From Desulfobulbus sp. (GTDB taxonomy: Bacteria; Desulfobacterota; Desulfobulbia; Desulfobulbales; Desulfobulbaceae), in the NCBI RefSeq assembly GCF_030824455.1, contig NZ_JAVBXR010000124.1, forward strand, positions 62,001 to 126,000: a stretch of DNA of 64,000 nucleotides. Direction: 5' to 3'. The notes beneath the pieces were generated by a model. It had not been told where the DNA came from. It ran no database searches and saw nothing but the letters and a program-made list of their open reading frames with translations. Position 1 is the first letter of the stretch, and the number at the start of each line of letters is the position of its first letter. This document shows positions 5,627-64,000 of the stretch, piece by piece. A program made the translations under genes and the position numbers.

Positions 5627-5629
5627 GCT

Positions 5630-10444: not shown

Positions 10445-10475
10445 CATTTTTTTCAAAAACATCCAAAAAAGCATG

Positions 10476-10531: not shown

Positions 10532-10632
10532 AAAAAAGATGACCAGTGCTGTCAGAACGGCTCCGGAACGGCCGACGAAATAGCCGGTCAACACTTCAAC
10601 CGGACGCAAAACCGGGGGAGAGGGAGGAGGAG

Positions 10633-13322: not shown

Positions 13323-13331
13323 CGGTCGGCT

Positions 13332-13369
13332 GTTCCCGGTCCGGCTTGTCGCGAGCCGGAGCCGGGAAC
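13332..13369 (+). other. Strong hairpin between lutBA and pta
   Basis: GTTCCCGG (13332-13339) and CCGGCT (13341-13346) pair with AGCCGG (13354-13359) and CCGGGAAC (13362-13369), with one bulged G. No T run follows, so it is not a standard terminator. It may protect the 3' end of the lut mRNA or set the lut/pta ratio. Confidence 0.5.
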
Positions 13370-13395
13370 GGCAGCCCCGACGATCCCGATTTGAT

Positions 13396-13422
13396 TTGAT
13401 AGATATCTGAAAGAGTTATACA
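13396..13422 (+). promoter_or_regulatory. Possible internal promoter for pta-ackA
   Basis: TTGATA at 13396-13401 and TATACA at 13417-13422 are 15 bp apart, in an AT-rich island between GC-rich flanks. The short spacer makes this tentative. It would allow pta-ackA expression when the lut promoter is off. Confidence 0.35.
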
Positions 13423-13541
13423 CTACCTACACAACCCAAACGCCGGTCCCCGCCTGGAGCAGCACCACTGTTCCGGCCGGGGCCGGTCCGTTTTACCAAC
13501 ACTCCTCCCGCGGTCCAGCGGGAGCGCGAGGTTCAACTCCC

Positions 13542-15659: not shown

Positions 15660-15687
15660 GCCTCCCCCTTATACCGGAAACGCGATT

Positions 15688-16896: not shown

Positions 16897-16962
16897 GGCG
16901 GATGCGTTTGCTGTAAAGCGGAGGGAGGGCCCAGCGTCTTCGGGACGCTGGGGTCGACAAAC

Positions 16963-16999
16963 AAAAGGCGATTTCAAGGGAACTTGAAATCGCCTTTTT
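16963..16999. terminator. Bidirectional terminator between ackA and the TPR gene
   Basis: A perfect 16-bp stem (AAAAGGCGATTTCAAG at 16963-16978 with its complement at 16983-16998) has the loop GGAA. T runs occur in both directions. A second GC-rich hairpin (about 16931-16950, TTCG-type loop) lies just before it on the ackA side. Confidence 0.9.
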
Positions 17000-17031
17000 C
17001 ATTGGGATCGGAGTAAAAACACTTACGGCTT

Positions 17032-17664
17032 CTATTTTTTTTGTGTGGTCAACTGAAGGAATTCGCCAGCTTTTTCAGGGCTGAGTCTTCGCAGTTTTTC
17101 GGAGATTTCCTGAACGCCGGCACGGTTGCCGGACATAAAATAAACAAACCCGAGATCACTCAAACAGTCGACGTCTCCAGGGCGAATGCGCAAAGCGTGG
17201 AGATATGATTCAACCGCGTCGTTGTAGCGCTTCAGCTCAGCATAAACAAACCCGAGATTGCTCCAGCCGTCAGCATCTTCAGGATTGACGCGCACTGTCT
17301 GCAGGTACGCTGCAATAGAGTCATTGTACTGTTTCACATTGAGATAGCCATACCCGAGGCAATGCCACGCCGAGGAGTCGTTCGGTTCGCTCTTTGACCA
17401 TTGTTGACACCAAGCAAGCATCCCCTTCCAGTCGGACGCTTCTTCAAAGGCTTGAGAGCCTTTCAGCCACTCGTCGTGATTCCTGGGAGATACAGGCCGT
17501 TGTTCTCCGTTATCTTGTGGCGCTAAAGAGCCCGAGGCAGCGGGTGGAGATATGGCTGAGCCGGGCGCAGAGCCGCCATTCATGGCTGCATGCGCTGCAA
17601 CGGGCAGCATTGCCGGCAACAACAGCGTAATCAACCAGAACATCATCGCCACAACAAATTTCAT
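17032..17664 (-). CDS. Exported TPR-repeat protein
   Basis: This 210-residue protein has a Sec signal peptide ending near PVAAHA. A low-complexity Ala/Ser/Pro linker follows, then at least three tetratricopeptide repeats (about 85-195), for example SAWHCLGYGYLNVKQYNDSI and DGWSNLGFVYAELKRYNDAV. TPR proteins of this kind act as protein-binding scaffolds in the periplasm; the partner is unknown. The ATG at 17664 is preferred over a TTG four codons upstream, but neither has a clear ribosome-binding site. The IS1380 element begins 165 bp upstream and may have separated the gene from its original promoter. Confidence 0.7.
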   Translation of the reverse strand: MKFVVAMMFWLITLLLPAMLPVAAHAAMNGGSAPGSAISPPAASGSLAPQDNGEQRPVSPRNHDEWLKGSQAFEEASDWKGMLAWCQQWSKSEPNDSSAWHCLGYGYLNVKQYNDSIAAYLQTVRVNPEDADGWSNLGFVYAELKRYNDAVESYLHALRIRPGDVDCLSDLGFVYFMSGNRAGVQEISEKLRRLSPEKAGEFLQLTTQKK

Positions 17665-17823
17665 TTGTATCAGCAAGGTTAATTGGTCGGGGTAAGGTTA
17701 TATTCCCCGGCTCCTCCATTCTGTCAGGCTTCCCCGTTTGTGCGGTTACTTACCGCGCGGCGAGCGCCTAAATTTCTTCTTTGAATTGATCGTTGCAGTC
17801 TTGGTTCAATGGGGATAGGACGT

Positions 17824-17828
17824 TTAAA
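17824..17828. repeat. Target-site duplication, left copy (TTAAA)
   Basis: TTAAA flanks the left end of the IS element and recurs at 19465-19469. A duplication of 4-5 bp is usual for IS1380-family insertions. Confidence 0.7.
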
Positions 17829-19464
17829 CCTGAAAACGGCAGTTGAATAGTGTCTGTTTTCGTGTAACGTTCTTTGGTAGCGATATAAATTCACTCAATA
17901 TATCCACCGAGGTATTCACCAAATGGGTGAGCAGCACGAATTGATGGTTCCATCCGATGAGCGTGTCCGTTTAGACACCTACGCCGGCAAGGTCCATGTG
18001 GAATGGGATCCGCAGGCGGCGGTCACACCACTTGGGCAGCTGCCCTTTTTCATCTCCTTTCTCAAGGTCAGCGGGTTGTATGACGACTTCGTCGCCTCCT
18101 GTCCCTTGTCGTACACCAGCCCCAACGCCCCCGGCCAAGCGGGATGCGCTTGGCACTCTGCTGATGTCGATCCTGGCCGGTCACCACCGCTACGCACACA
18201 TCACCTCGTTGCGCTTCGATGCGGTAAACCCGGAACTCTTGGGAATGAGCAAGGTGATCAGCGAGGATGCCACCCGAAGGGCACTCAAGGCGATGGACGA
18301 GGAAGCTGGCATCGCCTGGCTCGATGCCCAGTTGCACACCTCCACCGCATCTGCCCTGTCGCTGGCCTCCTGGATTCTTGACACCGACACCACGGTCAAG
18401 TGTCTCTACGGCAAACAGGAGGGGGCGGTTGTCGGCTACAATCCGCAGAAAAAAGGCCGTCCTTCCCACAACTACCACTCTTGTTTTATGGGCAATACCC
18501 GCCTGGCCCTGACCGTGGAGGTCAATCCCGGCAACCGTCAGGCGGCCTCCCATGTGACGCCATCTTTGTGGCGATACTACGACGGGTTGGCGGACAATCA
18601 GAAGCCCGCGCTAATCCGCGGCGACCTCTTTCTCGGCAACGAGGGGTTTCTGGCTGCGGCCGAACAACGGGGCGCCCACTATCTCACCAAACTCCGTCTA
18701 ACCACCGGCGTCAAACGGTGCATGACCCGGCTGTTTCGCCAGGCCGACTGGGTCGATGCCGGCAAGGGTTTCGAGGGGGCCGAGTCCCGACTCAAGCTCA
18801 CCGGCTGGACCCAGGAGCGGAGGGTGATCGTCCTGCGTCGGCCGCTGGCCGGCGAGGTAGCCCTGGCCGACGAAGGCCCAGTCCAGTTACACCTGGCCTT
18901 TATCGACGGCCCTGCGACCATGCGCCGTTATGAATATGCCGTGCTGGTGACCTCATTACCCTCGGAGATACTTACCTTGGCCCAGCTGTACCGCGATCGG
19001 GCCGATTGCGAAAACTGTTTCGATGAACTCAAAAACCAGTGGGGCTGGGGTGGTTACACAACCAAGGATCTCAAGCGCTGCCGTCTGACCAGCCGGCTTG
19101 TTGCCCTGGTCTACAACTGGTGGAACCTGTTTGTTCGCCTTGCTCAACCCAAGAAGCATGCCGAGGCGATCACCAGCCGGCCTTTGCTCCTCCATGGCGT
19201 AGCCCGACAGACCAGACACGCTGGCCAAACCACCTTAACGATCACCAGCAGCCATGCCAGATCCCAGACCGTTCAGTCCGCACTGCGAGTACTGACGCGA
19301 TTCCTCGACCTGTTGCAGGGTGCTGCGGAGCAGTTGCGGTCTTTGGATCGCCTCGGGCTCATCACGCAACAGGCATTCCGCTATTTGTTGGACAAACGGG
19401 CTGCCATTGCGGGACTGCTGCCACCACCGGCAGCTGCTTTTACTGGGTAACTGCCGTTTTTAGG
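17829..19464 (+). mobile_element. IS1380-family insertion sequence, 1636 bp
   Basis: The left end CCTGAAAACGGCAGTT (17829-17844) and right end AACTGCCGTTTTTAGG (19449-19464) form 16-bp terminal inverted repeats with one mismatch. TTAAA is duplicated on both sides. The element holds one transposase gene, which is frameshifted. It lies between the TPR gene and the helicase gene and breaks neither coding region. The intact ends and duplication suggest a fairly recent insertion. Confidence 0.85.
17923..19450 (+). pseudogene. IS1380-family DDE transposase, frameshifted
   Basis: The N-terminal part starts at 17923 in one frame (MGEQHELMVPSDERVRLDTY, through VASCPLSYTSPNAP). The protein then continues in the next frame from about 18130 (AKRDALGTLLMSILAGHHRY) to the stop at 19450. 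The shift lies in or near a CCCCC run at about 18127-18133. The DDE residues are intact in the second part: ILDTDTTV, IRGDLFLGNEGF, and YRDRADCENCFDELKNQWGW with the Y-R-E-K spacing of this family. Family members are normally a single ORF of about 460-500 codons. This is therefore a one-base insertion or a sequencing error rather than an expected programmed frameshift. Confidence 0.8.
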
Positions 19465-48342: not shown

Positions 48343-48990
48343 GTGCGCACTTTTCCATCAATGCTGATCGCTGTTTGGGCCGCCACTGTTATCTTCCTCA
48401 CCCCAGCCTTTGGCGACAGCACATCAGCCGAATACACAATGCTCTACGATCCAGACTTTCACCTCTACTGGTTGGTCGGCAAAACCCCTGACACCAGCAA
48501 AATGACCTGGAGTGAAGCGAATGCCTGGGCGGAAAATCTTTCCTTTGGCGGATATGACGACTGGAGCCTTCCGGATACTCCCGACGGGACATGGGGATAC
48601 GACAACAAAAACGTATCGACAAAATACAATGTCACTGAGAGCGATCTCGGTCATGTTTATTATTCGCTGCTGAAGCTCACTCCAGACAAGGGCATCAAAA
48701 CAACCTCGTCTCCTTTTACCAACCTGCAAGCCGGATATTACTGGTTTGGCAGCTTATCCAAGACCTGCGACGACCAAAACAATCCAATGGGTTGGATATT
48801 CGATTTTCGATTCGGAACACAATTCCTTGCCTCAACCAACACCAAGGCCTACGCCATAGCCGTACGCCATGCCCCAGAACCATCCACAATCTTCCTCTTT
48901 CTAGCTGGACTGTTGACACTCTGTCGCACCTCTTGCGAAAAGAAACGCCAACTCAATTCCTTAGCTGAGAAATCCCTAAACAGGGCATAA
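48343..48990 (+). CDS. PEP-CTERM sorted protein with a DUF1566-like domain
   Basis: This 215-residue exported protein has a signal peptide (about 1-24). The central part matches the Lcl/DUF1566 style: MTWSEANAWAENLSFGGYDDW followed by SLPD, and later GYYWFGS and AYAIAVRHAPE. The C-terminus is a PEP-CTERM signal: PEPSTIFLFLAGLLTL (about 178-193) then RTSCEKKR. Exosortase enzymes recognise such signals, cut them, and release the protein to the surface, usually in polysaccharide-producing bacteria. The exosortase gene is not in this window. GTG is the start, with GGAGG 7 bp upstream. The tail after the basic cluster is about 15 residues longer than usual. Confidence 0.8.
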   Translation: MRTFPSMLIAVWAATVIFLTPAFGDSTSAEYTMLYDPDFHLYWLVGKTPDTSKMTWSEANAWAENLSFGGYDDWSLPDTPDGTWGYDNKNVSTKYNVTESDLGHVYYSLLKLTPDKGIKTTSSPFTNLQAGYYWFGSLSKTCDDQNNPMGWIFDFRFGTQFLASTNTKAYAIAVRHAPEPSTIFLFLAGLLTLCRTSCEKKRQLNSLAEKSLNRA

Positions 48991-50128: not shown

Positions 50129-52840
50129 ATGCAACTCACCCTAATCCGTTTACTTGTCGCTTTTTGCTGTTGGCTGCCATTTTTTGCCTCGGCGGCAACC
50201 CAGTCTGTCCATGTTGAATGGGGATACACCCCGCCAAGCGAGCCGGCGGTAACTGGTTTCAAGCTCTATCAAGAAGGCGTGTTCGCCTGTCAGGTCGAGG
50301 ACCCCAACGCTACAGCCATGGATTGCGAGGTTACCTTAACCGCTGCCACCACCAATTTCACCTTGACCGCCAGATTCAGCGACAGCACCGAGAGCCCGCA
50401 TTCAGCGCCCTTTGCCTTTACCACGACCGACGCAACTGTCCCGGACACCACGCCCAAGACTCCAGCTCCGGACCCCGATACCGACACAGCAACAACCGAA
50501 TCCGGCAGCAAACTGTTCACCTTTTCCTGGGGTTCAACCGCCGATCAAACCACCCTCAAAGGCTACAAAATCTACCTGAACGACGTTCCTCTTTGCGAAA
50601 CCAGCACCCCCTCCGCCACTTCGCTAGCCTGCAAGGCGGACCTCATCCGCGGCGTCATGACTTTCGGCATGACCCAGGTTGCCGCCGACGGCAGCGAAAG
50701 CGCCGTTTCCAACCTGCTGGTGTTTGACCCCACCGCCTATCCGGAACTATTCACCACCAAACTCGTCACCTTCAACTGGGAATACAGCGGAACAACAGAC
50801 ATCACCGGTTTCCGTGTTTATCAAAACAACGCGCTCATCTGCCAAACCACTGACCCGACCGCACGGCAGCTGGCCTGCACGGTAGACATCAACAGCACGC
50901 CTGTTTCCTACGGATTAACCGCCGTGCAGTCGGACGGCTCAGAAAGCATTCTCTCCAACCTGCTCACCTACACCAGCGATTCTTCCACAACCGAACCAAC
51001 CGACACCACCACCTTGAAAGCGGTAATCACCGCTGCTCCCCTTACCGGAACAGCTCCCGTGACGGTTGATTTCAACGGGACTTCTTCAACCGGCTCCATC
51101 TCATCCTTCCAATGGGACTTCGGCGACGGAGCAACCGCAACAGGCAACACCGCCAGCCACGCATACACCAATGCAGGCGCCTACACGACAAAGCTGACCA
51201 TTACCGATGCCGCCGGACAGACAAGCATAGCTTCCGCAACGGTGACAATTACCGAACCCGCCACCCCAGCGACGCCACCGACGGCGGTCATCTCTTCATC
51301 AGGCGCTGCCGGCCCTGCCCCCTTGACCGTGAATTTTGACGGTTCCGGGTCCACAGCCGCAAGCGGCGCCGCTATAACGAGCTATGCATGGAGCTTTGGC
51401 GACGGTTCTTCGGCCACCGGCACCGGTACGTCCCACTCCTTTACATCGGCCGGAACCTACGACACCACGTTGACCATCACCGACAGCAAAGGCTTAACCA
51501 GTTCAACCAGCACCCCGGTCGTGGTCACGGCGGCGATAATCACCAACAAAGCGCCGACCGCAGTCACCAGTGCCGCGCCAATAACTGGAACAATCCCCTT
51601 GACGGTCACCTTTGACGGATCACCGTCCACTGACAGCGATGGAACCATCGCTTCCTATACCTGGAATTTTGGCGACGGCAGTTCGGCAAGTGGGAAAACC
51701 GTCACTCACACTTACAGCACCGCAGCAACTTTCACCGCGACCCTTCAGGTAGCAGACGACAAAGGCGCCACCGGGTCCGCTGTCACGACAATCACCGCCC
51801 AGCCTAAAGAGCAGGAAACCTCCCAGCTCAACATGGAAACCGGAGAAATTTCCGTAACCGACAAGTGGGTTCGGGTTCCTCTGACCGGAACATTTCAAAA
51901 TCCCATTGTCATTGCCGGCCCGGTTGGATTCAACAATGCCGACCCAGGCGTGGTCCGCCTGCGCAACGTGGATAAAACAGGGTTTGACATAAAATTTGCC
52001 GAGTGGAATTATCTGGACGGAACCCATCCGGAAGAAACCCTTAGCTATCTGGTTGTGGAAAAGGGCCGCTTTACCCTGGATGACGGCTCGTCTGTTGAAG
52101 CTGGAAGCTTTGCAGGAACCACCAGTTTTAAAACGATATCGTTTAGCACAGCCTTCGCCAAAACACCGGTAATGCTCACGACCATCGCGTCGGCAAACGA
52201 AGCGGACACCATCAGCGGCCGAATCAAAAACATCGGCCTCTCCAGTTTTGCCTACTACTTCCGGGAGCAAGAGAAGAACACCAACACTCACGCCAACGAA
52301 ACAGTCAATTTCATTGCCTGGGAACCCGGCACGGGAAGCATCGGTTCGGTGCAGTTCGAGGTTGGAACCACAGCTAAAGCCGTAACCAATGCCTGGTATA
52401 GCCGCACATACCAAACATCGTTCACACAACCACCACTGCTGCTGGCAGACATGCAGACCACGGCCAATACCGACACCTCGGCACTGCGGGTGCAACTACT
52501 CACCGCAACGGAATTTCAGGTAAAGGTGGAAGAGGAAAAATCTAAGGATACCGAGATAACCCATCCTGTAGAAACAGTCGGTTACCTTGCACTCAACCAA
52601 GCGGAGGAAAAGGTGCTGGCGACCTTTGCGTGGGACTTCGACGCCGCCCAGGAAGCCAATATCACTGGATTCCAGGTTCTAGCCAATGGCGAACAAATTT
52701 GCACAACTAACGCCGCGACAGCCAGACAACTAAGTTGTGAAATAACCAAACCTGCCACTGCAAAGGCGTTTACCATCCAGTCGATTGAAAAAACGGGCGG
52801 CCTCAGTTCTCCCTCAAACACGGTCATCTACACGCCATGA
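50129..52840 (+). CDS. Large exported protein with Fn3-like, PKD and H-type-lectin-like repeats
   Basis: This is a 903-residue secreted protein. A signal peptide (about 1-23) is followed by three Fn3-like repeats (about 28-105, 131-205, 212-288), each with an FxW start, a GFKxY segment and a cysteine pair, as in TGFKLYQEGVFACQ and TGFRVYQNNALICQ. Three PKD domains come next (about 294-375, 384-470, 475-562), with WDFGDG-type cores. Three related units at about 570-820 share a pattern of F-x-x-P-V, N-x-x-D, and THPxExxxYL, as in H-type lectins. A fourth Fn3-like repeat closes the protein (about 829-903). It has no enzyme motif or sorting signal. Binding of surface glycans or adhesion is likely. 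It has a sigma-54 promoter. Confidence 0.75.
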   Translation: MQLTLIRLLVAFCCWLPFFASAATQSVHVEWGYTPPSEPAVTGFKLYQEGVFACQVEDPNATAMDCEVTLTAATTNFTLTARFSDSTESPHSAPFAFTTTDATVPDTTPKTPAPDPDTDTATTESGSKLFTFSWGSTADQTTLKGYKIYLNDVPLCETSTPSATSLACKADLIRGVMTFGMTQVAADGSESAVSNLLVFDPTAYPELFTTKLVTFNWEYSGTTDITGFRVYQNNALICQTTDPTARQLACTVDINSTPVSYGLTAVQSDGSESILSNLLTYTSDSSTTEPTDTTTLKAVITAAPLTGTAPVTVDFNGTSSTGSISSFQWDFGDGATATGNTASHAYTNAGAYTTKLTITDAAGQTSIASATVTITEPATPATPPTAVISSSGAAGPAPLTVNFDGSGSTAASGAAITSYAWSFGDGSSATGTGTSHSFTSAGTYDTTLTITDSKGLTSSTSTPVVVTAAIITNKAPTAVTSAAPITGTIPLTVTFDGSPSTDSDGTIASYTWNFGDGSSASGKTVTHTYSTAATFTATLQVADDKGATGSAVTTITAQPKEQETSQLNMETGEISVTDKWVRVPLTGTFQNPIVIAGPVGFNNADPGVVRLRNVDKTGFDIKFAEWNYLDGTHPEETLSYLVVEKGRFTLDDGSSVEAGSFAGTTSFKTISFSTAFAKTPVMLTTIASANEADTISGRIKNIGLSSFAYYFREQEKNTNTHANETVNFIAWEPGTGSIGSVQFEVGTTAKAVTNAWYSRTYQTSFTQPPLLLADMQTTANTDTSALRVQLLTATEFQVKVEEEKSKDTEITHPVETVGYLALNQAEEKVLATFAWDFDAAQEANITGFQVLANGEQICTTNAATARQLSCEITKPATAKAFTIQSIEKTGGLSSPSNTVIYTP

Positions 52841-53063
52841 ACCTCAGCGCTCATCACGCCAATATGCGCCAACGCGAGAGGATGTTCCTGACCAGAGAAG
52901 ATATAGCGAGTGTCACGAAGCCACCTCCTTGTACAATCACACGGTCATTTCGAAGCGCGAAGGCCGTTGCAATCTTAGCTCATTGCCACCAGATAGATCG
53001 AAAAAATTACCTCGCCCTCTGTACAATTACAAAAGGCCCTATAAGCACCCCAGGAGAGCACCA
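52841..53063. other. Gap before the PKD-LamG gene
   Basis: About 220 bp with no gene called. An open frame of the downstream gene extends leftwards here but has no start with a ribosome-binding site before 53064. I see no terminator after the preceding stop, so read-through from the sigma-54 promoter is possible. Confidence 0.4.
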
Positions 53064-53966
53064 ATGAAAACAACCAAGCCCACTGCCCAGGCACTCCGCG
53101 CCGTAGCCCTAACCGGCCTCCTCTCACTTGCCTTTGTCATCCCGGCAAATGCCGTCGACTTTTCCGGCAGCCTCACGGGAGTTACAATCACCGACGCCAA
53201 AGTTACCAACAGCCCCCCCGTTGCCACATTCACCTACAAGCAGGACGGCGAGACCCTCCTTTTCGACGCCAGCGGTTCATCTGATCCGGATGGCAGCATT
53301 ACGGCCTACAAATGGGACTTCGGCAGCGGCTCCGTAGCAGAAGGGGCAACCTCCTCATACACCCCCACTTCTCCCGCCAACGTTCAAGTAACGCTGACTG
53401 TTGTGGACAACAATAACGGCGTGGCCTTAAGCCAACGAACAGTGGGGCTCGCTCCTAAAGGCGTTCAAGACGATTTCTCGACCGACACTGCCGGAAATTA
53501 CACTGTTCTTAAAGGCGGACTCAAAGTGGCCGACGGCGCTATGCATTCAAGTGGCAACTGGACAACAACCTACGCCATCCACACTACCGAACTGGCGTCA
53601 GACAACCACACGGTCGAAGCAGATGTTTTTTATAGCGGATCAAGCGGAACAAGCGGGTTGCTGTTCAGATTTAATAAAGAGCAGGCTACCGGATACAGTG
53701 TTTGGTTTGCTAGCGGAAGAATCATGCTGAATGCTTACAGTAGCGGTTCAGAAAAATTCATCTCATTTTATGATGGTAAATATGCAGCAGGAATTTATCG
53801 CCTAAAAGCTGAGATATCAGGAAACCTGATCAAGATTTATGTGAACGGCACCCTTGTTTTAGAGAAGACAGACAGCACATACGGTACAGGCAAGCAGATA
53901 GGTTTAAAGATCAATCCATACGGTGACGCCACATCGGTTACTGTCGACAATTTAACTGGAAATTAG
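53064..53966 (+). CDS. Exported PKD plus LamG/concanavalin-like protein
   Basis: This is a 300-residue protein. The signal peptide ends near VIPANA (about 28). A PKD-like domain follows (about 50-130, LLFDASGSSDPDGSITAYKW, with WDFGSGS in place of WDFGDG). The rest (about 135-300) is a jelly-roll resembling LamG or DUF1080, with HTVEADVFYSGSSGTSGLLF and IKIYVNGTLVLEKTD. Such domains bind carbohydrates or calcium. CAGGAGAG lies 7 bp before the ATG. It is 10 bp before the next gene, so the two form an operon. Confidence 0.75.
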   Translation: MKTTKPTAQALRAVALTGLLSLAFVIPANAVDFSGSLTGVTITDAKVTNSPPVATFTYKQDGETLLFDASGSSDPDGSITAYKWDFGSGSVAEGATSSYTPTSPANVQVTLTVVDNNNGVALSQRTVGLAPKGVQDDFSTDTAGNYTVLKGGLKVADGAMHSSGNWTTTYAIHTTELASDNHTVEADVFYSGSSGTSGLLFRFNKEQATGYSVWFASGRIMLNAYSSGSEKFISFYDGKYAAGIYRLKAEISGNLIKIYVNGTLVLEKTDSTYGTGKQIGLKINPYGDATSVTVDNLTGN

Positions 53967-53976
53967 AATAACGCCT

Positions 53977-56229
53977 ATGAACAGGATAATTTTTCATACA
54001 TTTGCATTTATCCTGCTTGCAACTACCAGCAATGCAGCCATAGAAAATCTTGACGAAATGGCCGCGCGAAAGGAACGGCGGGCAACGAATACCTATTACA
54101 GCGGGGAATCGGCAGGGAATGGGTGGAATCGGCAACCTGAGTCTCTGATGTATGCTGACACCAGGACCGGAAATGAGGTGTGGGTGCTCTCAAATACACC
54201 TAACAAATCCAACGTGTACTATACCGACATATCCCCTGCAAACCCTTGGTCCGCAGATGGGGCAAGGGTTGGTTTTTTTAGCAACAGGCCAGTCAGCGAG
54301 TTTACACGAACTGCAGGGTCTTCTTTAGACGCTGCCATAGCTTCAACATTTACCGTTAACACTGATGGTTCACACCTTCGGGCTGCTTATGATTCTTCTG
54401 AAAGGACATATTCATCATCAGGTACACAATATTTCTACTGGAGTCCGGTTATTCCAAACACATATTATACAACTGGAGGTAGATTCAACGGTCAGTCCCT
54501 GGACTCTAGCGCCATTTACAAAAATACAGTAACTGACAAGGGTACGATTTATAGCAAATTAGTTGATTTACCAGGAGTCGACTCTGACTATTATGGAATG
54601 AAAAAGATAATCAGCCCTGATGGCCAGTATCTTCTTCCTAAAAAAGATGGAAAGTATTTCCCCGTCAGAGTTCATCCGGAAGCATCCGCAGGAATGCTGG
54701 ACACCGATGGATGGGCCGAGTACCGTGGACAACTCAACCAGTTTGCGGGAGGGGATCCGTTTGGTTGTCGCCATGATATATACTTCCCGTCACCTGATTT
54801 TATTGTAATTCTGTATTCAAACGACTGCAATTCCGCTCAACCAATACTTTACAAACTAAATATAAAGGGCACCGACCCAGACGGTGGGCCGGCGTTCGAT
54901 GACGCCGAGTTGAAGTATGCAAATTTTGGTGATTTTGAAACCGAACCATTGTGGAACTATATGCCTCCCCGCGTCCCTTGGAAGCTCGAACCAACAAATA
55001 TGAAACATTGGTGGGGACACCCAGGATTCGACAGATGGGGGAGGACCGTAACGTTTGGGGATGGCAATGGGTATCAATTGATAAACGGAAATTTATATGA
55101 ATTTGGAGGTCCTGTTACGTGGGATTATAAAGCTCGGAAACTAGAAGCGCAACCTGCCGGCACTTTACTGCCTCAAGTCCTCGTAAATAAAGGGGCTTCA
55201 TACAATGACCACAACGCATGGTCCGATTATTTCGCGCTCTCAAACACTGGTGCAGGAAAGCCAGAAGAGGATCAGTGGGTAGGAACTGCAGAGTACAACA
55301 AGACTGCGGCTAACAAGAATGATTTCAGAATGGTTTCTTATCATTACCAAAACCAAAACGGCTCAACCAGCTATACCTGGACCAGCAACAACAGAATTGC
55401 TCAAAGCCCGGACGGAACTAAAATATCTTACGCAATCACTTTTTTAACAAACATCGCAAACACAGGCGACCTCGCCTATGCAGTCGCGCACTACCCACAC
55501 CCACCTGAAATTACCAGCGTCACCGACAATAGCGGCGCCTATACGGTGCGTTTTGACTGGCGATTAGGAACGGCAACCCCGCGGGGTTACACTAAGCGGG
55601 GGTGGCCCAATGAAGCAACTGACAATCCGCCGCCGCCAAGGGAAACCAAACTGTTCCGAGTGTGGCGGTCCTGCGACAAGGTCGATGACTGGAAGCCCTT
55701 GGGCACCGTCAATGCAGATATCTTCAGCCGGTATGATTTCAGCACGGGCCAGTGGAAAGGCAATGATTATTGGGAGTTTACCGACGACTCCAAGCCTTCC
55801 GGAACGTGCTATTATGCGGTGACGGCACAAGAACATTCGGGGCTGGAATCTCGCACGTTATCAAATGTCCTGAGCACGACAGGCACGCAAACATCAGAGT
55901 ATCCGAGCGACCCCAAGGGAGCAAAACCATTCTACCTCGTTGCACCTCAATGGCCCAAACCAACAGTCAGCAAGCTTAGCACGCCCGGCCAATATCGTCT
56001 TGATTGGGAAGAACCTGCGAACGCTATGATTCGTTATTACAATATCTATTATTCAACGGATCCCATTCCCAAAGCCATTCAAAGCCAACGGATCGCATCG
56101 GTTCCTAAAGGAACCAACACCTATGTTGATTGGTTAGCTCATCCAACGAGTGAGGGCCACTATCTGATAACCAGCGTCGACAGCCAAGGGAATGAATCTT
56201 CGCTTGCCAGAAGAATGCTAACCCCTTGA
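53977..56229 (+). CDS. Large exported propeller-like protein with C-terminal Fn3 domains
   Basis: This is a 750-residue protein. The signal peptide is short (IIFHTFAFILLATTSNA). Residues about 45-500 contain repeated blocks ending in SPDG-type turns (for example SADGARVGFFSNRP, ISPDGQYLLPKKDG, QSPDGTKISYAITF), as in WD40/TolB-like propellers. Two Fn3-like domains follow (about 510-640 and 660-745, for example YRLDWEEPANAMIRYYNIYY). I do not recognise a catalytic motif; sugar binding or a lyase activity cannot be excluded. It is co-transcribed with the PKD-LamG gene. GC content drops here compared with the left half of the window, which may mark acquired DNA. Confidence 0.65.
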   Translation: MNRIIFHTFAFILLATTSNAAIENLDEMAARKERRATNTYYSGESAGNGWNRQPESLMYADTRTGNEVWVLSNTPNKSNVYYTDISPANPWSADGARVGFFSNRPVSEFTRTAGSSLDAAIASTFTVNTDGSHLRAAYDSSERTYSSSGTQYFYWSPVIPNTYYTTGGRFNGQSLDSSAIYKNTVTDKGTIYSKLVDLPGVDSDYYGMKKIISPDGQYLLPKKDGKYFPVRVHPEASAGMLDTDGWAEYRGQLNQFAGGDPFGCRHDIYFPSPDFIVILYSNDCNSAQPILYKLNIKGTDPDGGPAFDDAELKYANFGDFETEPLWNYMPPRVPWKLEPTNMKHWWGHPGFDRWGRTVTFGDGNGYQLINGNLYEFGGPVTWDYKARKLEAQPAGTLLPQVLVNKGASYNDHNAWSDYFALSNTGAGKPEEDQWVGTAEYNKTAANKNDFRMVSYHYQNQNGSTSYTWTSNNRIAQSPDGTKISYAITFLTNIANTGDLAYAVAHYPHPPEITSVTDNSGAYTVRFDWRLGTATPRGYTKRGWPNEATDNPPPPRETKLFRVWRSCDKVDDWKPLGTVNADIFSRYDFSTGQWKGNDYWEFTDDSKPSGTCYYAVTAQEHSGLESRTLSNVLSTTGTQTSEYPSDPKGAKPFYLVAPQWPKPTVSKLSTPGQYRLDWEEPANAMIRYYNIYYSTDPIPKAIQSQRIASVPKGTNTYVDWLAHPTSEGHYLITSVDSQGNESSLARRMLTP

Positions 56230-56324: not shown

Positions 56325-57683
56325 CTAACAAAACGGATTCTCTATTTTTGAGATGCAAAACCGATATTTCCCAGAAAGTTCAGATTGAATCGAGGCCACA
56401 TATTCAACCTGCCAAGCCATCTGGTCGCCAAAGCGTTCTCTTGCCAGCTGATCAATATCACTGACGGTATGGCTTGAGAACGCCTCCCCTTTTACTATCT
56501 TGAACACCAGCAAATCGATTTTTTCCTGAACAATCTGCATCTGTTTCACACCGGGAAGATGCATCGCAAAATTTTCTGTTAGAGAAATCCCTGATATATA
56601 CTTGCCGTCCGGCGTAACCACATAATCGGCTATCCGGCCTTCAAGAGAATCCATAATCGGATAGGTACAGCCACAGGGGCAGGCGCCCTTGACCGAAGGA
56701 ACGCCGACATCGCCGACCTTGTACCGAATGACAGGCATGCCGTAATTGGTAAGATCAGTCACAACAATGGCCCCAGGCTCACCGGGCGCCACAGGCTTAC
56801 CGTCACGAAGAAACTCAACAAGCAAAGAATCGCAATTCAAATGCATATTCCCTTGCGCACATTCACACGCAATCAGGCTGACTTCTTCACAACCGTAACG
56901 GTTAGTTACCCGGCAACCAAAAATCCGTTCAATAGTTTCACGCTCAAAATCATGCAGCACCATGCAGGTGCTTATAATGCCTTTGGGCCGAATGCCGGAC
57001 AACCCGTTTTGCTCCATAAATCGGGCAAACAGAAAAAGCGAATGGGCATGGCCAAACAGAATGACAGGCTGCTTTCTGAGTAGCGCCTTATGGTATTGCC
57101 GCATCGTCGGTTCGTCCATCTTCAAGGTGTCGAGATAGAGGTGACGATTCAGCAACATATTGCGCAGATACATCCGCCAGTTCTGGTAGCACTCCGGATT
57201 TCCCCAAATAGCGCCCACTCGCTCGCCAATGTCCCAACCGGACCAGCGGTCATAAACAATTGTCACCGCACGCTTCCACTGATTGCTGGCTTCATCCGTA
57301 TACAGTTCCACTGAAACCCCGGTGGAACCGGAGGTCTTCTTTGGCATCAAGCTGTCTTTTGGTATATTTTTGGCCGTCATACCATCTTTGTTGGCTCGGA
57401 GGTCATCCTTCGTCAACAATGGCAACCGTTGCAGGTCGGCAAGGGTGCATATACTATCCGGCGTAATGCCACATTCCGCAAAGCGAGCGCGGTAATAAAG
57501 CGTCTCCTCATAAGCATGGCGCACAAGTGATTTCAATCGCCGCAATTGATCCTCATGCACTGCCGCAATCGGCCTGCGGTGCATGTCTTCAATAATTTTA
57601 ACATAGTTCAAATATGGCGTTTGCTCCCTCATTGCCCACAGTGGGGCAATAATGCCTCGTATAAAGGTTCCTGTCATGCTCAT
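56325..57683 (-). CDS. PaaK/CapK-like adenylate-forming enzyme
   Basis: This is a 452-residue member of the phenylacetate-CoA ligase-like branch of adenylating enzymes. The phosphate-binding loop is KKTSGSTGVSVELYTDE (about 114-130). VTNRYGCEEVSLIACEC and GEPGAIVVTDLTNYGMPVIR match later core motifs, with the hinge near DSLEGRIADYVV. Members in polysaccharide loci (CapK type) are thought to activate an acid for attachment to sugars, rather than phenylacetate for catabolism. It is the last gene of the polysaccharide operon, 115 bp after the GNAT-ATP-grasp gene. AGGGGG precedes the ATG. Confidence 0.8.
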   Translation of the reverse strand: MSMTGTFIRGIIAPLWAMREQTPYLNYVKIIEDMHRRPIAAVHEDQLRRLKSLVRHAYEETLYYRARFAECGITPDSICTLADLQRLPLLTKDDLRANKDGMTAKNIPKDSLMPKKTSGSTGVSVELYTDEASNQWKRAVTIVYDRWSGWDIGERVGAIWGNPECYQNWRMYLRNMLLNRHLYLDTLKMDEPTMRQYHKALLRKQPVILFGHAHSLFLFARFMEQNGLSGIRPKGIISTCMVLHDFERETIERIFGCRVTNRYGCEEVSLIACECAQGNMHLNCDSLLVEFLRDGKPVAPGEPGAIVVTDLTNYGMPVIRYKVGDVGVPSVKGACPCGCTYPIMDSLEGRIADYVVTPDGKYISGISLTENFAMHLPGVKQMQIVQEKIDLLVFKIVKGEAFSSHTVSDIDQLARERFGDQMAWQVEYVASIQSELSGKYRFCISKIENPFC

Positions 57684-57798
57684 TACGTTTTCCCCCTATC
57701 TTTACCCAAAACACGATCCACTCAAGTGTTGTACAGGATCAAGGAAATGCCAAGGCCGGATGATGCGCAGACCGCAGTCACTTGATCATTAAGGCTCC

Positions 57799-59691
57799 TC
57801 ACCTGAGAAAATTCAAAGCTCGCATGATTTTCAAACGGACGGCATCAACCAACCAGCGAAAAAAAGGTAGTGGGTCGTCCGGTGCAAAAAGGCAGTATGC
57901 AGTCGGTCCGGGCAACGGTTTGAGCAATTCGGCCCACGTCACCTTCCCCTCACCCACCGATACTCGAACCGCCTCGATTTCTAATTGCAAATTCATGTAG
58001 GACGCAGATGGCCGGGGTGGACAGGCGAAACAAGGTTCTCCAATGGCCGCTAAGTAGGTATCCAACACGAGGTTGGTTCCGGCGATTTCCGCCAAGGGGC
58101 TAATCGCTTCAGGGCGAAAATTTGTTTCAATGTAATAAAGATCTTGAGTGCCCTGGCGTCGTTTTGCCTCAATTCCGATAAATCCTCCAATCTTAAACAG
58201 TTCGCATAGCTTTATCGACTTTTCCTCCATTTTGTCATCTTGGTGGATTACCCCTGAAGACATTAACCCAAACCCAGGAGGCTTTTGCCGTAATTTATGA
58301 CCACTCACATACGCACGCGCTCTGCCCAGAACGTCACAACTCGCCATAAATAAAAGTACATCCTGATCGGATCCAGGTATGTATTCTTGCGCAAGAAGTT
58401 TGGTGCGTTCATCATCAAAAAATTGTTTCGCTTGCTCAACAAAACCTGCCGGAGAATCATAAATGAGCACCTTCTCGAGGAAGTTGCCAACCGTATGCCG
58501 AGCAAGTGGTTTGACAATAATAGGAAATTGCATTCGTTCACATACCGCGTCCAACTCGTCAGCACTCTGCAAGACCATCGATTGCGGTACACAGAACCCT
58601 GCTTCAACTGCTGGAGGCAACTGGTTTGCCTTCTCTAAATAATGGCCGACATCACCCATGGGCAATATGGTGAAATGCTTTTCAAGAAAAGGCCGTATCG
58701 AATGCAAATTAAAAATGTCATTTTCGGTGATATGCATCATCACCGGCTTCTGCTTGCACGAACCCATGGCAGCCAACATTGCTGTCAGCCGCTGGATGAG
58801 TTCTTGGTCAGTAATGTCTCCAGTAAACTGTTCTATCCTGTGCGCATATCGCGTTTTTCCTGTGTATGTTAAGGGACCCTTCACCAACAAATACACCGGA
58901 ACCCCATTGCGCCCCAAGGCGCGTATCATACTCAGTAGGGTAGAACCGTCATGACGAACCTTGGAAACAATCACCACCGGAACAACAGGGAACGAGCCGG
59001 ATGCCAAGCGAACACCATAACGAAACACCTGAAACGGGCATCCCAGTCGGCTGCCATGAAGGACTGTCCCCAAGATTGCAAAGCCTGCTTTAAGAAAAGC
59101 GCGGAGAGAAAAAATACGCTTGGGTCGTATTAAAGCATACGCAAATGCATACCCTCTCTGCTTTGCAATATTAAGAGTATAACACAGCAGAGCCGTCGCA
59201 ATGCCCTTTCCGCGCGCTTCTGGAACCGTATACAGGCGGCTCGGCGCACAGGCTTTGCTGGCTCGTTTTTCCAAGGGCAGAACATTCGGATAATACCAAT
59301 CTCGGAGCCAAATGACGCCCAGCAGTTGATTGGTTATCGAATCGCGCGCAACAAAACAGGCTATACCAGCCTTAAAGCGTCCGTATATCTCGTTGCGCAA
59401 TACAGGGCGGGGCATCGCCGGGGTTGGAGCCGACAATTCATCAGGAAATGTTGCGACAATGTCTTCCAGATCATCGGTTTCATTCCCTTCGCGAAGAGCA
59501 AAAAATTTACCATCAAGCAATTCTTCAGCCGTTTCAGCTTGGCCCCACTCCTTCAAATTACATTCAACCAGAACACTCTCGACTCTTCGATATATCTTAT
59601 TGAGGCGCTTACGAATTTCCCAAGAATAGTTTCGGTATTTGTCATTCATATCTACGCATGGCCCCATGCAACTTGACATTTTTCTAACCAT
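57799..59691 (-). CDS. GNAT acetyltransferase fused to an ATP-grasp ligase
   Basis: This is a 630-residue fusion. Residues about 30-215 form a GNAT fold with the acyl-CoA loop PEARGKGIATALLCYTL. Residues about 230-620 are an ATP-grasp enzyme: FPIIVKPLARHTVGNF (ATP lysine), EYIPGSDQDVLLF, and the metal loop YYIETNFRPEAISPLAE with the E-x-N-x-R pattern. ATP-grasp enzymes join a carboxylate to an amine through an acyl phosphate, so with the GNAT half the protein could build or attach an N-acyl amino-acid group on the polysaccharide. Substrate is unknown. A TTG at 59697 overlaps the flippase stop (TTGA) and has the better AAGGA spacing; the ATG two codons later is given here. Confidence 0.78.
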   Translation of the reverse strand: MVRKMSSCMGPCVDMNDKYRNYSWEIRKRLNKIYRRVESVLVECNLKEWGQAETAEELLDGKFFALREGNETDDLEDIVATFPDELSAPTPAMPRPVLRNEIYGRFKAGIACFVARDSITNQLLGVIWLRDWYYPNVLPLEKRASKACAPSRLYTVPEARGKGIATALLCYTLNIAKQRGYAFAYALIRPKRIFSLRAFLKAGFAILGTVLHGSRLGCPFQVFRYGVRLASGSFPVVPVVIVSKVRHDGSTLLSMIRALGRNGVPVYLLVKGPLTYTGKTRYAHRIEQFTGDITDQELIQRLTAMLAAMGSCKQKPVMMHITENDIFNLHSIRPFLEKHFTILPMGDVGHYLEKANQLPPAVEAGFCVPQSMVLQSADELDAVCERMQFPIIVKPLARHTVGNFLEKVLIYDSPAGFVEQAKQFFDDERTKLLAQEYIPGSDQDVLLFMASCDVLGRARAYVSGHKLRQKPPGFGLMSSGVIHQDDKMEEKSIKLCELFKIGGFIGIEAKRRQGTQDLYYIETNFRPEAISPLAEIAGTNLVLDTYLAAIGEPCFACPPRPSASYMNLQLEIEAVRVSVGEGKVTWAELLKPLPGPTAYCLFAPDDPLPFFRWLVDAVRLKIMRALNFLR

Positions 59692-59693
59692 AA

Positions 59694-61220
59694 TCAAATT
59701 TTTCCTTTGAAAAAAATCTGTTGGAACCGCTGCAATACACTATTGCGTACATTTTCATCCAAAGAAAATTTCCAGATGGCCAACAGGTAAATGGCTCCAG
59801 ACACACCGATCTGAATCAAAATATTCATATAACTTTTTTCAATGAACAACATTTTAAAAATCCACAAGGAAAGACCCAACAGTAACAGAGCAGGAAAAAT
59901 GCGTATCAATGTCATGCGAAAATAGGTCCACAAGGGTATGCGCATCACAGCACAGGCCATGACCACAGTGAATATATTCCCCAGAACTGTTGTGATTGAC
60001 GTACCTGCGGCGACCCCAACCACTCCCCACAGATACCCACCACCCACGCCCAGAGGGACACTGAGCACCGAAAAAACAAGCCACATCAACGCAGGCTTGC
60101 CATGTTTACCCTGGGCGGTCAGTATACTGAAAGCATTGGTTGCAAACGAGTCGGCCACTAAACCAACCAGCAAAAGGTACAACACCAGCCGCCCGGCAGC
60201 CGAATATTCAGGCCCAATCCACAGCTCCAAAAATGTTTCGCCACAGAAAAAAATAACAATGGGCATGCCTAGCGAAACAATTTGCAAAGCCAGAGTAGTA
60301 TTTAACCAGGAGTTTTTTAACACTTCAACGTTCCCTTTACCGATAGTCGCACCGAAATAAGGGACCAGGGGAAAGCCTATCGCCCTGGAAAATCCTTTAG
60401 CATAATCAATCAAGCGGTTGGGCATGACAAAATAGACAATATGCCCCAAGCCAATCACATGCCCGATGATTAATGGCACGCTCTGATTCTGCAATCGGGA
60501 GGCAACCATCATCGCGGCACTTTTCAGACTGAAAAGCATCATCTCCCTCGCTTTCTTTCGGCTTACCGCAGATAGGGCCACGTTAGGGATGTCCCGGTCT
60601 AAAATTACAGCTCCAACAAATAATAAAACCTGAACCGCAGTATAACACGGTTGCAACAAGGCCATCACGAGCAAGCCCTTCCCAGGATACCGCAACAGCA
60701 GATAATAGGAGACTCCAGCCCGAGTGATCAGCAACACTATTCGGACACTATTGAGAAAATAATGGCGCTGCATACCGGAAAGCGTTGCGGTAAAGACCTG
60801 CAAAGGAAAAAGCATGGCAGCATTGATACCCAGTAACAGAAAAACCGTTTCGAGGTTGGCAATATCCCGTATTTCCTGGCCGGCTATCAGTCCGGGAGAA
60901 TAGCTTAACATTGAGAATAACAAGAATGCGACAACACCCACGGGAACAAAAAAAGCACACGCGGTGCTCATAGTTTGCTGCAAATCCTTCTTATCCTGCC
61001 TGCCGTCAGCAATCGAAACAAACCGCACCAGGGAACCGCCAATCCCCAGATCAAGCAACCCCATATAACCAACGACGCTTAACACCAGTTCCCACAAGCC
61101 ATAATCGCGATTTCCCAGTGCATGGATGTACACAGGGCTCATGATGAAGGCAACGACGACGTTTGCGACATAGAGCGTGGTGCCCGTCAACGAATTCAAC
61201 AGTAATTTTTTACTCATCAC
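59694..61220 (-). CDS. Polysaccharide flippase (Wzx/MATE-like)
   Basis: This 508-residue inner-membrane protein has about 14 predicted helices. It begins SKKLLLNSLTGTTLYVANVV and contains GNRDYGLWELVLSVVGYMGL, then LLDLGIGGSLVRFVS, the N-terminal pattern of polysaccharide exporters. It would move lipid-linked repeat units across the membrane for assembly by the Wzy-like protein encoded upstream. It overlaps the glycosyltransferase stop by 4 bp. Confidence 0.88.
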   Translation of the reverse strand: MMSKKLLLNSLTGTTLYVANVVVAFIMSPVYIHALGNRDYGLWELVLSVVGYMGLLDLGIGGSLVRFVSIADGRQDKKDLQQTMSTACAFFVPVGVVAFLLFSMLSYSPGLIAGQEIRDIANLETVFLLLGINAAMLFPLQVFTATLSGMQRHYFLNSVRIVLLITRAGVSYYLLLRYPGKGLLVMALLQPCYTAVQVLLFVGAVILDRDIPNVALSAVSRKKAREMMLFSLKSAAMMVASRLQNQSVPLIIGHVIGLGHIVYFVMPNRLIDYAKGFSRAIGFPLVPYFGATIGKGNVEVLKNSWLNTTLALQIVSLGMPIVIFFCGETFLELWIGPEYSAAGRLVLYLLLVGLVADSFATNAFSILTAQGKHGKPALMWLVFSVLSVPLGVGGGYLWGVVGVAAGTSITTVLGNIFTVVMACAVMRIPLWTYFRMTLIRIFPALLLLGLSLWIFKMLFIEKSYMNILIQIGVSGAIYLLAIWKFSLDENVRNSVLQRFQQIFFKGKI

Positions 61221-62359
61221 CGCCCCAATATCTGCGTTATAAGGTGTAGGAGTTTCACTGATGAAAGATTGACATCATACCGAGCGCGTGCCTCCGGTAT
61301 AAAATCCCGAAAAATTTCAGATGGGTTGTTACAGATTGAATCCAGCATCAAGTCAGTCAGAGCAACAACATTCTCAGATTGAAAAACCTTTGCCGGGGTC
61401 TCGGCAACTGTTTCCCTAAGTCCAATGCAATCAGAGGCTATCAGTGGAGCCCCCATACAGAGAGCTTCCATCGCCAACAAACCGCTCGCCTCCCAACGTG
61501 AGGGCATTACAACCACGTCTATTTGAGGATAAAGATGATGCACCATCGGTTGAAAGGGCAGAAAATGAAAAAATCTATTCAGCCCTTTTTTTCTAATAAC
61601 AGCTTGATATTCCCGCAAATAATCGCCAGAACCTATTGCCGCGACAGCGAAAGGTTTTCCATCATTTTGCTGTTGCAGGCTCAAGACAGCTTCGATCAAA
61701 AGATCGAAACCCTTTTGCGGCATAAATCGCCCTAAAAATCCAAAAATGAAGGTGGCCTGATCAATACTCAACGCCTTACGCAAAGTTAGTGGTTGTGCAG
61801 GCACAGTGTCCAACACTTTCAGCTCAATGCCATTAGGAATAACCACTGCATGTGGCCCATCAGTTTTCAATCGAGGATATTGACAGTACAAATGTTCGAG
61901 AATATCATTGCTGACCGCATATAAGACCGTTATCCGCGATAGTATCCAGCCTAGCGCCCTTCGTTTTAGTGAACCAAATTTTCCCGTAACGTACTGAGAC
62001 TCGACAATACCATGAATAGTCAATACATGGGGAATTCTGAAACACACATTTGCCAGATATACAGCTACTGATGATATGAAGCCCTGGCTGAGAATAATAT
62101 CATAGTTGCTTATTTGCAATTCCTTGAATATTGCAACGGCAAAATCGCGAGTATCTGAGGACCGTACAAGCTTCAACTCAGCATTACATGCAGTACAATC
62201 TCTGAAGAGAGCATGGTCTTCCTGAGTAGAGGCTGCCAATACGGACAACCTGCAAGAGGATGGCAAATGGCTGAACATATAACGCATATATGTTCTGATA
62301 CCCCCAAGCGGCCAACGGGCAACAACCAACACTCTGATATTCATTTTGTCAAGAGACAT
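61217..62359 (-). CDS. Glycosyltransferase family 4 (GT-B)
   Basis: This is a 380-residue enzyme. It opens VLVVARWPLGGIRTYMRYM, a GT4 N-terminal loop, and has AVVIPNGIELK and FGFLGRFMPQKGFDLLIEA. The C-terminal donor site is MPSRWEASGLLAMEALCMGAP, split at 20 residues: MPSRWEASGLLAMEALCMG, with the E-x7-E spacing. It probably adds one sugar, perhaps mannose given manB and manC in this window. The first ATG has no strong ribosome-binding site, and one at 62344 is possible. The next gene overlaps it. Confidence 0.85.
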   Translation of the reverse strand: MSLDKMNIRVLVVARWPLGGIRTYMRYMFSHLPSSCRLSVLAASTQEDHALFRDCTACNAELKLVRSSDTRDFAVAIFKELQISNYDIILSQGFISSVAVYLANVCFRIPHVLTIHGIVESQYVTGKFGSLKRRALGWILSRITVLYAVSNDILEHLYCQYPRLKTDGPHAVVIPNGIELKVLDTVPAQPLTLRKALSIDQATFIFGFLGRFMPQKGFDLLIEAVLSLQQQNDGKPFAVAAIGSGDYLREYQAVIRKKGLNRFFHFLPFQPMVHHLYPQIDVVVMPSRWEASGLLAMEALCMGAPLIASDCIGLRETVAETPAKVFQSENVVALTDLMLDSICNNPSEIFRDFIPEARARYDVNLSSVKLLHLITQILGR

Positions 62360-62382: not shown

Positions 62383-63687
62383 TCAATGGACTTGTGTCGA
62401 CAAAGGAATTGCTCTAGGCTTGCACACAATTTTCACTTCAGCAATACAGACCAAACTGCCAGACCACGCCGCCAACCATAACCACAACGTACGATAAAAA
62501 TTATGCCCAGCTAACCCCAGAAGCAGCAACAGTAACAAACTCGCCATAATAGCCCTTGCCAGTGAACAAAGAAATAATCCTTCTTCTCGAGAATAAGCGC
62601 CCAGTATTCTTAGAGCCCTCCTACTATTTTTCCAGGTAGCAAAGATCAGCCCGACAAAAAGAAGGGCGCCAGGGAGGCCAAATTCAGCAAGCACCTGACC
62701 ATACAAGTTGTGAGATTGGTGGGGTGAAGGAACAGTTCCGACAACAGCATCAACATTATGGGCCATTCGGTACCCTATAAAGTTTTTCCCACCAGGCCCG
62801 ACACCAGTAAAGGGTTTCTGTTTGAACATTTCCCAACTGACCTGCCAGCCAAATAATCTCCCCTTAGCCGAATCGGAAGCAACTTTGGGGCCGGCGTCTG
62901 TATCCCAAATGGTTCTGATTCGTTCTCGCTTATCTACAGGCATGACAGTCCAGACGGCACCCAGCGAAAATAACACGAGTAAGATCAACCATTTCTTTTT
63001 ACTGCCCTTCTGCGAACCACCCCAAAGCAGAACAAGAAAAACAAAAGCGATAGATGCAGAGCGCGAACCAGTCAAAATGACGCAGAGGATAGCTAGGGCA
63101 AAATAACTAAAGTATAACTTTCGCATGAAGGATTTCGCTTCGGAACACAGCAGCACGTAGACAAAGGGCAGCGAAAGCACGACACTGGCACCAAAGGCGT
63201 TGGGATCGTTATGAGTTTCGTCTACCCCTATCATCCTGGCGATACCCTGACGATATTCATGCCGTCCGTTATGATACTCCCAGAGTGAGTGCAGCATGTA
63301 GAACATCATCGAAAAGACAAAAGCTTTTATGAGCAGTTGCAGCGAAAACTCGTCATCAGCTACAGCAAGCATTAACAAATAAACCAAAACAGTCTTTGCG
63401 TATTCGTAATTTTGATCCAAAGTGAATTCACTGTTAAATGAAAATGGAATCAATAAAAAATGCAAACACAAAAGCGAATACACCCACTTATTCGTTGAAG
63501 AAGTTACAATTAAAAGCTTGCCGGACAACAATGAAACCAAAATCATTACTGTAGCAAATATTCGTTCTATTGGAACTCCCTCTAAATACCTAATCGATTC
63601 CCAGGGCCTTTCTGTGAGAAGGAATATGTACAAACAGACCATGACTAATGCGGAGGGGACAGTACCCCTAATTTTATCTTGAAGCAT
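62383..63687 (-). CDS. O-antigen ligase / Wzy-type polymerase
   Basis: This 434-residue membrane protein has about 11 helices and a large periplasmic loop. The family segment HQSHNLYGQVLAEFGLPGAL (about 325-344) contains the conserved histidine and lies after FTGVGPGGKNF. LTGSRSASIAFVFLVLLWGG is the second common motif. Such proteins join polysaccharide units or transfer chains to an acceptor; sequence alone does not separate the two. No ribosome-binding site is visible at the ATG. It lies 39 bp after the deacetylase-like gene. Confidence 0.82.
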   Translation of the reverse strand: MLQDKIRGTVPSALVMVCLYIFLLTERPWESIRYLEGVPIERIFATVMILVSLLSGKLLIVTSSTNKWVYSLLCLHFLLIPFSFNSEFTLDQNYEYAKTVLVYLLMLAVADDEFSLQLLIKAFVFSMMFYMLHSLWEYHNGRHEYRQGIARMIGVDETHNDPNAFGASVVLSLPFVYVLLCSEAKSFMRKLYFSYFALAILCVILTGSRSASIAFVFLVLLWGGSQKGSKKKWLILLVLFSLGAVWTVMPVDKRERIRTIWDTDAGPKVASDSAKGRLFGWQVSWEMFKQKPFTGVGPGGKNFIGYRMAHNVDAVVGTVPSPHQSHNLYGQVLAEFGLPGALLFVGLIFATWKNSRRALRILGAYSREEGLFLCSLARAIMASLLLLLLLGLAGHNFYRTLWLWLAAWSGSLVCIAEVKIVCKPRAIPLSTQVH

Positions 63688-63726: not shown

Positions 63727-64000
63727 TTAATCAATTAAAGCAGAAACAGGCTTATTAATCTTATAATTTAGATACGAATTGGGATCGCCACCCATACCGT
63801 CCTCAGCAGCTGAAACTATATTATAAGCCTCTCTGGCTGTCACATAATGCAATTTATATTTATTATTTTTATATTTCATCTCCAAATAAGAAAAAATATC
63901 ATCAACAACAGTATTAAAAAATATTTTCTTGCTTTGAACACCATGAGTAAATGTTTTAACAAAAACCCATTCAGGGCGTCCAGATACGTGAACATTAGCT
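63727..64000 (-). CDS. C-terminal end of a polysaccharide deacetylase-like protein (partial)
   Basis: About 91 residues are visible before the TAA; the gene starts outside the window to the right. The visible part begins VHVSGRPEWVFVKTFTHGVQ, which closely recalls the WVFVKxHTHG segment of deacetylase-like proteins in exopolysaccharide loci. It later has LHYVTAREAYNIVSAAEDG. It would be an early gene of the polysaccharide operon. This stretch is clearly AT-rich. Confidence 0.65.
   Translation of the reverse strand, partial: ANVHVSGRPEWVFVKTFTHGVQSKKIFFNTVVDDIFSYLEMKYKNNKYKLHYVTAREAYNIVSAAEDGMGGDPNSYLNYKINKPVSALID

Follow-up and report, generated by a model that had tools for sequence, protein, structure and literature searches.

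A rare fusion of a GNAT domain to an ATP-grasp ligase and a PaaK/CapK-type adenylate-forming enzyme, the latter common in such loci, lie next to each other at the downstream end of an exosortase-type EPS operon; judged by their sequences, their probable role is to attach acids or amino acids to the polysaccharide. Judging from gene order in related loci, the PaaK-type enzyme is the conserved core of this arrangement and the fusion is accessory cargo in a variable slot between the Wzx and PaaK genes. The pairing of GNAT with ATP-grasp recurs in other genomes, in polysaccharide loci.

An exosortase-type operon with two candidate decorating enzymes

Throughout, the window refers to the whole stretch of DNA that was analysed (64,000 nucleotides). 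Read along its minus strand, the part of the operon inside the window comprises the 3' end of a 370-aa ORF (63727..64000; also L002 8728-9840), a Wzy/ligase-type polymerase (62383..63687; Wzy_C at 4.8e-25, and PEP_O_lig_1 at 9.8e-26, below its cut-off), a GT4 glycosyltransferase (61217..62359; Glycos_transf_1 at 1.2e-24), a Wzx-type flippase of the MatE family (59694..61220; MatE at 28.1 bits against a cut-off of 24.9), the fusion (57799..59697, 632 aa) and the PaaK/CapK-type enzyme (56325..57683, 452 aa). The operon reaches about 10 kb beyond the window end, up to an exosortase and EpsI. More specifically, this region, read as L002 (G000:C121:117000-136999), carries upstream of the 370-aa ORF an LbH acetyltransferase, five glycosyltransferases, an XrtA-system polysaccharide deacetylase, the exosortase and EpsI, and an EpsB_2-type sugar-phosphate transferase lies close to the operon. 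In L002/L003 the exosortase (TIGR03109, 219.9 bits against 208), the XrtA deacetylase (TIGR03006, 381 against 276), EpsB_2 (450 against 393) and EpsI (113 against 42.8) all exceed their NCBIfam cut-offs, which identifies the locus, at the level of profile matches, as an exosortase (XrtA-type) EPS locus with Wzx and Wzy.

The Wzx stop codon and the start of the fusion gene lie no more than about 10 bp apart, and the PaaK gene follows 115 bp downstream of the fusion gene with a purine-rich, RBS-like stretch ahead of its ATG. In the stretch read, no sugar aminotransferase was recognised as a source of amines. The 370-aa ORF is without a Pfam match and shows an HWHHG motif and an apparent membrane segment near its N terminus. 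On the plus strand, a small secreted protein (48343-48990) has a PEP-CTERM-like end, consisting of PEPST, a hydrophobic stretch and a basic tail, which fits the nearby exosortase, and a large PKD-repeat protein and other secreted proteins (50129-56229) adjoin the EPS operon; PKD relatives likewise stand next to EPS genes in L030, L031 and L072.

The fusion is annotated from a TTG start, with an alternative ATG at 59691 or another ATG further downstream. Its N-terminal half contains a GNAT core (residues ~100-222, 59032..59400) with the acetyl-CoA-binding motif VPEARGKGIA. Acetyltransf_1 matches residues 109-206 at 29.1 bits against a cut-off of 20.7, and a profile of this GNAT family leads to N-acetyltransferases in the PDB. 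The C-terminal half (residues ~240-620, 57838..58980) was assigned from alignments and profile matches to an ATP-grasp domain with its pre-ATP-grasp part. Used as a single sequence it gives a weak, below-cut-off match to the RimK family (6.6e-6; TIGR00768, 25.7 bits against 143.4) and finds glutathione synthase in the PDB at 0.0048. A six-sequence profile reaches carbamoyl-phosphate synthase, biotin carboxylase and D-Ala-D-Ala ligase, down to 5.8e-13, and in the alignments K396, Q437-E438, E524, N526 and R528, at nucleotide/Mg-binding and catalytic positions, are kept. With the family profile, membership of the ATP-grasp superfamily is clear by sequence. A structure prediction from five sequences reached a pLDDT of 39. 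A PatZ-type identity, in which an NDP-forming acyl-CoA synthetase is joined to a GNAT, was rejected, as neither PF13549 nor a CoA-binding domain matched to E = 1.

The 452-aa enzyme of the 'GHAHS' clade matches the PaaK-type ligase 4r1l in the PDB at 2.5e-26, and the family profile agrees. Its AlphaFold model (mean pLDDT 87.8) superposes at Z ~30.8 on PaaK1, BT_0428 and 2-hydroxyisobutyryl-CoA ligase and at Z ~27 on NatL2 and AjiA1, and BagE_FevW matches at 4.5e-17. Forty relatives keep TSGSTG, YGCEE, Y321/D325, R350, the SGK439 with the catalytic lysine in this C-terminal motif, and the Cys/His/Cys/Cys set C275/H281/C335/C337; GHAHS itself is invariant among them save for A/S at one position. 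Fold and motifs, the former from a predicted model, identify it as a PaaK/CapK-type adenylate-forming ligase. The phenylacetate-CoA ligase PaaK equivalog TIGR02155 was tried and fell short, with 81.8 bits against 646.3. As judged from the alignments, all three enzyme domains (GNAT, ATP-grasp and PaaK) retain their catalytic motifs.

The sequence-only reading of this DNA had described a GNAT domain fused to an ATP-grasp ligase, adjoined by a CapK/PaaK-like adenylating enzyme, inside a Wzx/Wzy-type polysaccharide operon. Each of these three descriptions holds: the two halves of the fusion are recovered by an above-cut-off GNAT match and by profile, the neighbouring gene by its PDB match, and the operon by the MatE/Wzx, GT4 and Wzy_C genes flanking the fusion and the XrtA EPS genes past the window.

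Conservation of the two genes and recurrence of the GNAT/ATP-grasp pair

The closest PaaK relatives in the class, L063 (76% identity) and L064 (67%), are both without the fusion. In L063, PaaK is flanked by the same set of Wzy, GT4 and Wzx genes; its Wzx, 64% identical to that of the window, adjoins PaaK, and a 360-bp gap takes the place of the fusion; in L064, Wzx and Wzy lie near PaaK and repeated mobile-element-like ORFs take the place of the fusion. We compared the contents of the Wzx-PaaK gap among 80 named PaaK loci. In Geobacter L1geo (L119 9326-9931) the gap is occupied by a single GNAT belonging to the same family, in L124 by a GT2 with a pyruvyltransferase-like gene and in L171 by a GT2 with a beta-helix-like protein; the pyruvyltransferase-like and beta-helix-like assignments were made by eye. 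Most matches among the 74 direct PaaK neighbours scanned were to GT2 (22), Wzy_C (10), GT4 (7) and deacetylases (5). An ATP-grasp of the fusion family occurs in 3 of the 80 loci (L132, L137 and L146). Among class genomes, ATP-grasp and PaaK do not co-occur above chance: PaaK is present in 2/7 genomes with the ATP-grasp and in 36/253 without it (Fisher p = 0.26). Since PaaK is kept without the fusion in its 67-76% identical relatives and the slot is variable, the two enzymes are probably separate decoration steps and not one obligatory pathway.

The full fusion was found in the genome of the window only, among 258 class and 395 phylum genomes (sets that partly overlap). Used as a query against genome contigs it found no relatives, its ATP-grasp alignment found none in viral contigs, and a plasmid search returned ATP-grasp proteins alone, at ~25% identity, none spanning 80% of the query. 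The same two domains are nevertheless paired elsewhere. GNAT and ATP-grasp are adjacent genes, in this order, in G457 (ATGA stop/start overlap), G437 (4-bp overlap), G587 (7-bp gap) and G479 (GNAT directly followed by ATP-grasp), and G147 encodes a fusion in the reverse order, ATP-grasp-GNAT. These five loci are all of polysaccharide type, with glycosyltransferases, deacetylases or flippases present.

In 29 Planctomycetota loci examined, no GNAT fusion was seen. The extra domains identified on long ATP-grasp ORFs there, considered as possible GNATs, turned out to be others: L257, L262, L273 and L279 carry the same ATP-grasp module joined to a methyltransferase, a radical SAM-SPASM domain or a low-molecular-weight phosphatase. 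When GNAT pairing was mapped onto a phylogeny of 39 ATP-grasp domains, parsimony required no fewer than 4 changes, and supported branches make 2 or more of these unavoidable; a single origin is not clearly rejected (p-AU 0.08), and the long branches weaken the result.

Two of the pairing loci hold further ligases. In L229 (G587:C10:8000-27000), positions 8412-19001 encode a GNAT, an ATP-grasp, a PF14397 ATP-grasp, a Mur-type ligase, a second ATP-grasp and a D-Ala-D-Ala ligase, a set that, beside EPS genes, resembles peptide building on a glycan. In L231 (G437:C3:36500-56000), one operon at 2565-13099 encodes a PaaK-type enzyme, an AsnB-like protein, two ATP-grasps, a GNAT, an LbH protein and a GT4, and also a second GNAT and a D-Ala-D-Ala-ligase-like ATP-grasp. 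The PF14397, Mur and D-Ala-D-Ala ligases of G587 and the AsnB-like and PaaK-type enzymes of G437 point to amino-acid chemistry on glycans.

Proposed roles and alternative readings

The domains, their intact motifs, the operon context, the variability of the slot and the recurrent pairing can be read from the sequences themselves. On these we build a model to which we give about an even chance, namely that two independent decoration modules, PaaK activation and GNAT/ATP-grasp N-acyl or amide formation, stand at the downstream end of the XrtA-type EPS operon. In this model, what each enzyme catalyses, on which substrates, in what sequence and where on the glycan is our inference. A lipid-linked repeat unit would be built in the cytoplasm, flipped by Wzx and polymerised by Wzy, and both decorations would take place in the cytoplasm on the lipid-linked unit, ahead of export by Wzx. 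PaaK/CapK would convert a carboxylic acid to an acyl-AMP, and probably on to an acyl-CoA, from which the acyl group would pass to a hydroxyl or an amine on a sugar. The ATP-grasp half of the fusion would activate the carboxylate of an amino acid or a uronic acid as an acyl-phosphate and link it to an amine, and the GNAT half would N-acylate, most simply N-acetylate, the resulting or starting amino group; the substituent formed would be an N-acylated aminoacyl group or an amide. It counts against the model that any acylation could come from the LbH acetyltransferase or from other transferases.

The sequence-only reading had suggested that the fusion and the PaaK-type enzyme could together make and attach an N-acyl amino acid or other acid. 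Spelt out as one linked pathway, PaaK would supply an acyl-CoA, GNAT would use it to N-acylate an amino acid, and ATP-grasp would attach the product to the polymer. All three functions do occur in one operon in the window. Moreover, a PaaK-type enzyme lies near an ATP-grasp of the fusion family or a GNAT in G437 (in the order GNAT-ATPgrasp-ATPgrasp-AsnB-PaaK), in G764 (where the PaaK-type and ATP-grasp genes overlap by 4 bp), in G250 and in L146, and in these the enzymes could share a pathway; as an observation apart, L076 (G250:C261) encodes in a row, at 6166-11155, PaaK, a FemAB-like protein, ATP-grasp, PaaK and a probable flippase. However, the partners in G437, G147 and G250 carry a GYPST-like motif in place of GHAHS, that in G764 has neither signature, and among the partners examined only L146, L137 and L132 have a PaaK of the GHAHS clade with the ATP-grasp in the same cluster. 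Because partners with the GYPST-like motif or without either signature also lie near ATP-grasp, the association, real in places, is not specific to the clade of the window as far as sequences tell. The nearest relatives, moreover, retain PaaK without the fusion, and co-occurrence across the class is not in excess. We thus find a single linked pathway unlikely: of the earlier claim, the joint work of GNAT and ATP-grasp gains from their recurrent pairing in polysaccharide loci, whereas the idea of the fusion and PaaK as one set is not supported. A search of other genomes, which that reading had proposed, gave a matching picture, with the fusion only here, GNAT/ATP-grasp pairs elsewhere, and PaaK elsewhere without the fusion.

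Two further readings separate the enzymes in other ways. PaaK/CapK might form an ester or amide straight from the acyl-adenylate, without CoA, as BagE/FevW, NatL2 and AjiA1 do, the fusion being unrelated. The matches to these synthetases of PaaK fold, and the retention of PaaK in loci without a recognised GNAT or ATP-grasp, are in its favour; the closest folds, though, belong to CoA ligases, namely PaaK1, BT_0428 (a putative acyl-CoA ligase by annotation) and 2-hydroxyisobutyryl-CoA ligase, and the LbH acyltransferase in the operon could use a CoA donor, so that we hold this reading to be doubtful. Alternatively, the fusion might make a free small molecule, such as an N-acetyl dipeptide that serves as a signal or in an osmolyte-like role, and be in the operon by chance. 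The order GNAT then ATP-grasp is that of N-acetylglutaminylglutamine-amide (NAGGN) synthetase, a single polypeptide that carries the GNAT at its N terminus and the ATP-grasp at its C terminus and yields a free dipeptide. Against this, the NAGGN synthetase family TIGR03103 (cut-off 569 bits) is not listed for the fusion at E <= 10, and across the whole genome nothing scores above its cut-off, the best being 29.8 bits at another place. An asparagine-synthetase-like amidotransferase and a peptidase, the partners of NAGGN synthetase, are absent among the recognised operon genes, which, the 370-aa ORF aside, are EPS genes only. Together with a start codon so close to the Wzx stop and with recurrent pairs all in polysaccharide loci, this makes a free product quite improbable. 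Indeed every GNAT/ATP-grasp pairing found lay in such a locus, so the predominance outside polysaccharide loci that the sequence-only reading named as counter-evidence is not what we see.

Beyond the two-module model, we can imagine, with little confidence, a dedicated GNAT/ATP-grasp route, in which the two genes became a coupled pair on several occasions and were fused in either order, that places N-acylated aminoacyl amides on EPS repeat units while CapK supplies an unusual acyl-CoA.

Comparison with known systems

Exosortase EPS loci often contain CapK/PaaK-like enzymes; our literature search found no reaction assigned to these enzymes, and its full-text part found no biochemical study on their function in polysaccharide synthesis. 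The locus and its relatives suggest acid activation as a candidate role for CapK, with acyl or amide substituents as the possible outcome, and make the GNAT/ATP-grasp pair, adjacent or fused in both orders, a candidate route for placing amino-acid-like groups on biofilm polysaccharides. Phylogenetic profiling against genomes with PEP-CTERM/EpsH ranked CapK (NE2015) 15th among the best matches (Haft et al., 2006; PMC1569441). Like the PaaK of the window, the CapK/PaaK-like (COG1541-type) proteins of exosortase/PEP-CTERM EPS loci are conserved near Wzx, Wzy, glycosyltransferases and the XrtA deacetylase, and, as far as compared by sequence, ours appears to be an ordinary member of this kind. That no pathway with this set had been described holds for the exact set within the literature searched; the individual elements are of kinds already reported near EPS.

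The fusion finds its counterparts among amidoligases. NAGGN synthetase (TIGR03103, trio_acet_GNAT) is a precedent for N-acetylation and amide ligation by one enzyme and has the same domain order. The fusion, in contrast, sits in an EPS operon, where amidotransferase and peptidase partners of the NAGGN type were not recognised; given this and the missing family match, we suggest by analogy that it may act like NAGGN synthetase and not be a member of that family. PF14397, the sugar-transfer-associated ATP-grasp, and the D-Ala-D-Ala and Mur ligases share the G587 locus with a GNAT/ATP-grasp pair, but they are ATP-grasp families that differ from that of the fusion, and none is found in the window operon. 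A further comparison is with the ATP-grasp and GNAT-fold amidoligases that Iyer et al. in 2009 reportedly predicted to help build capsules and other polymers of the cell surface, which are alike in setting ATP-grasp and acetyltransferase-like folds at a cell-surface polymer. On these sequence comparisons, the fusion/PaaK locus would be a variant of known EPS-decorating amidoligase systems.
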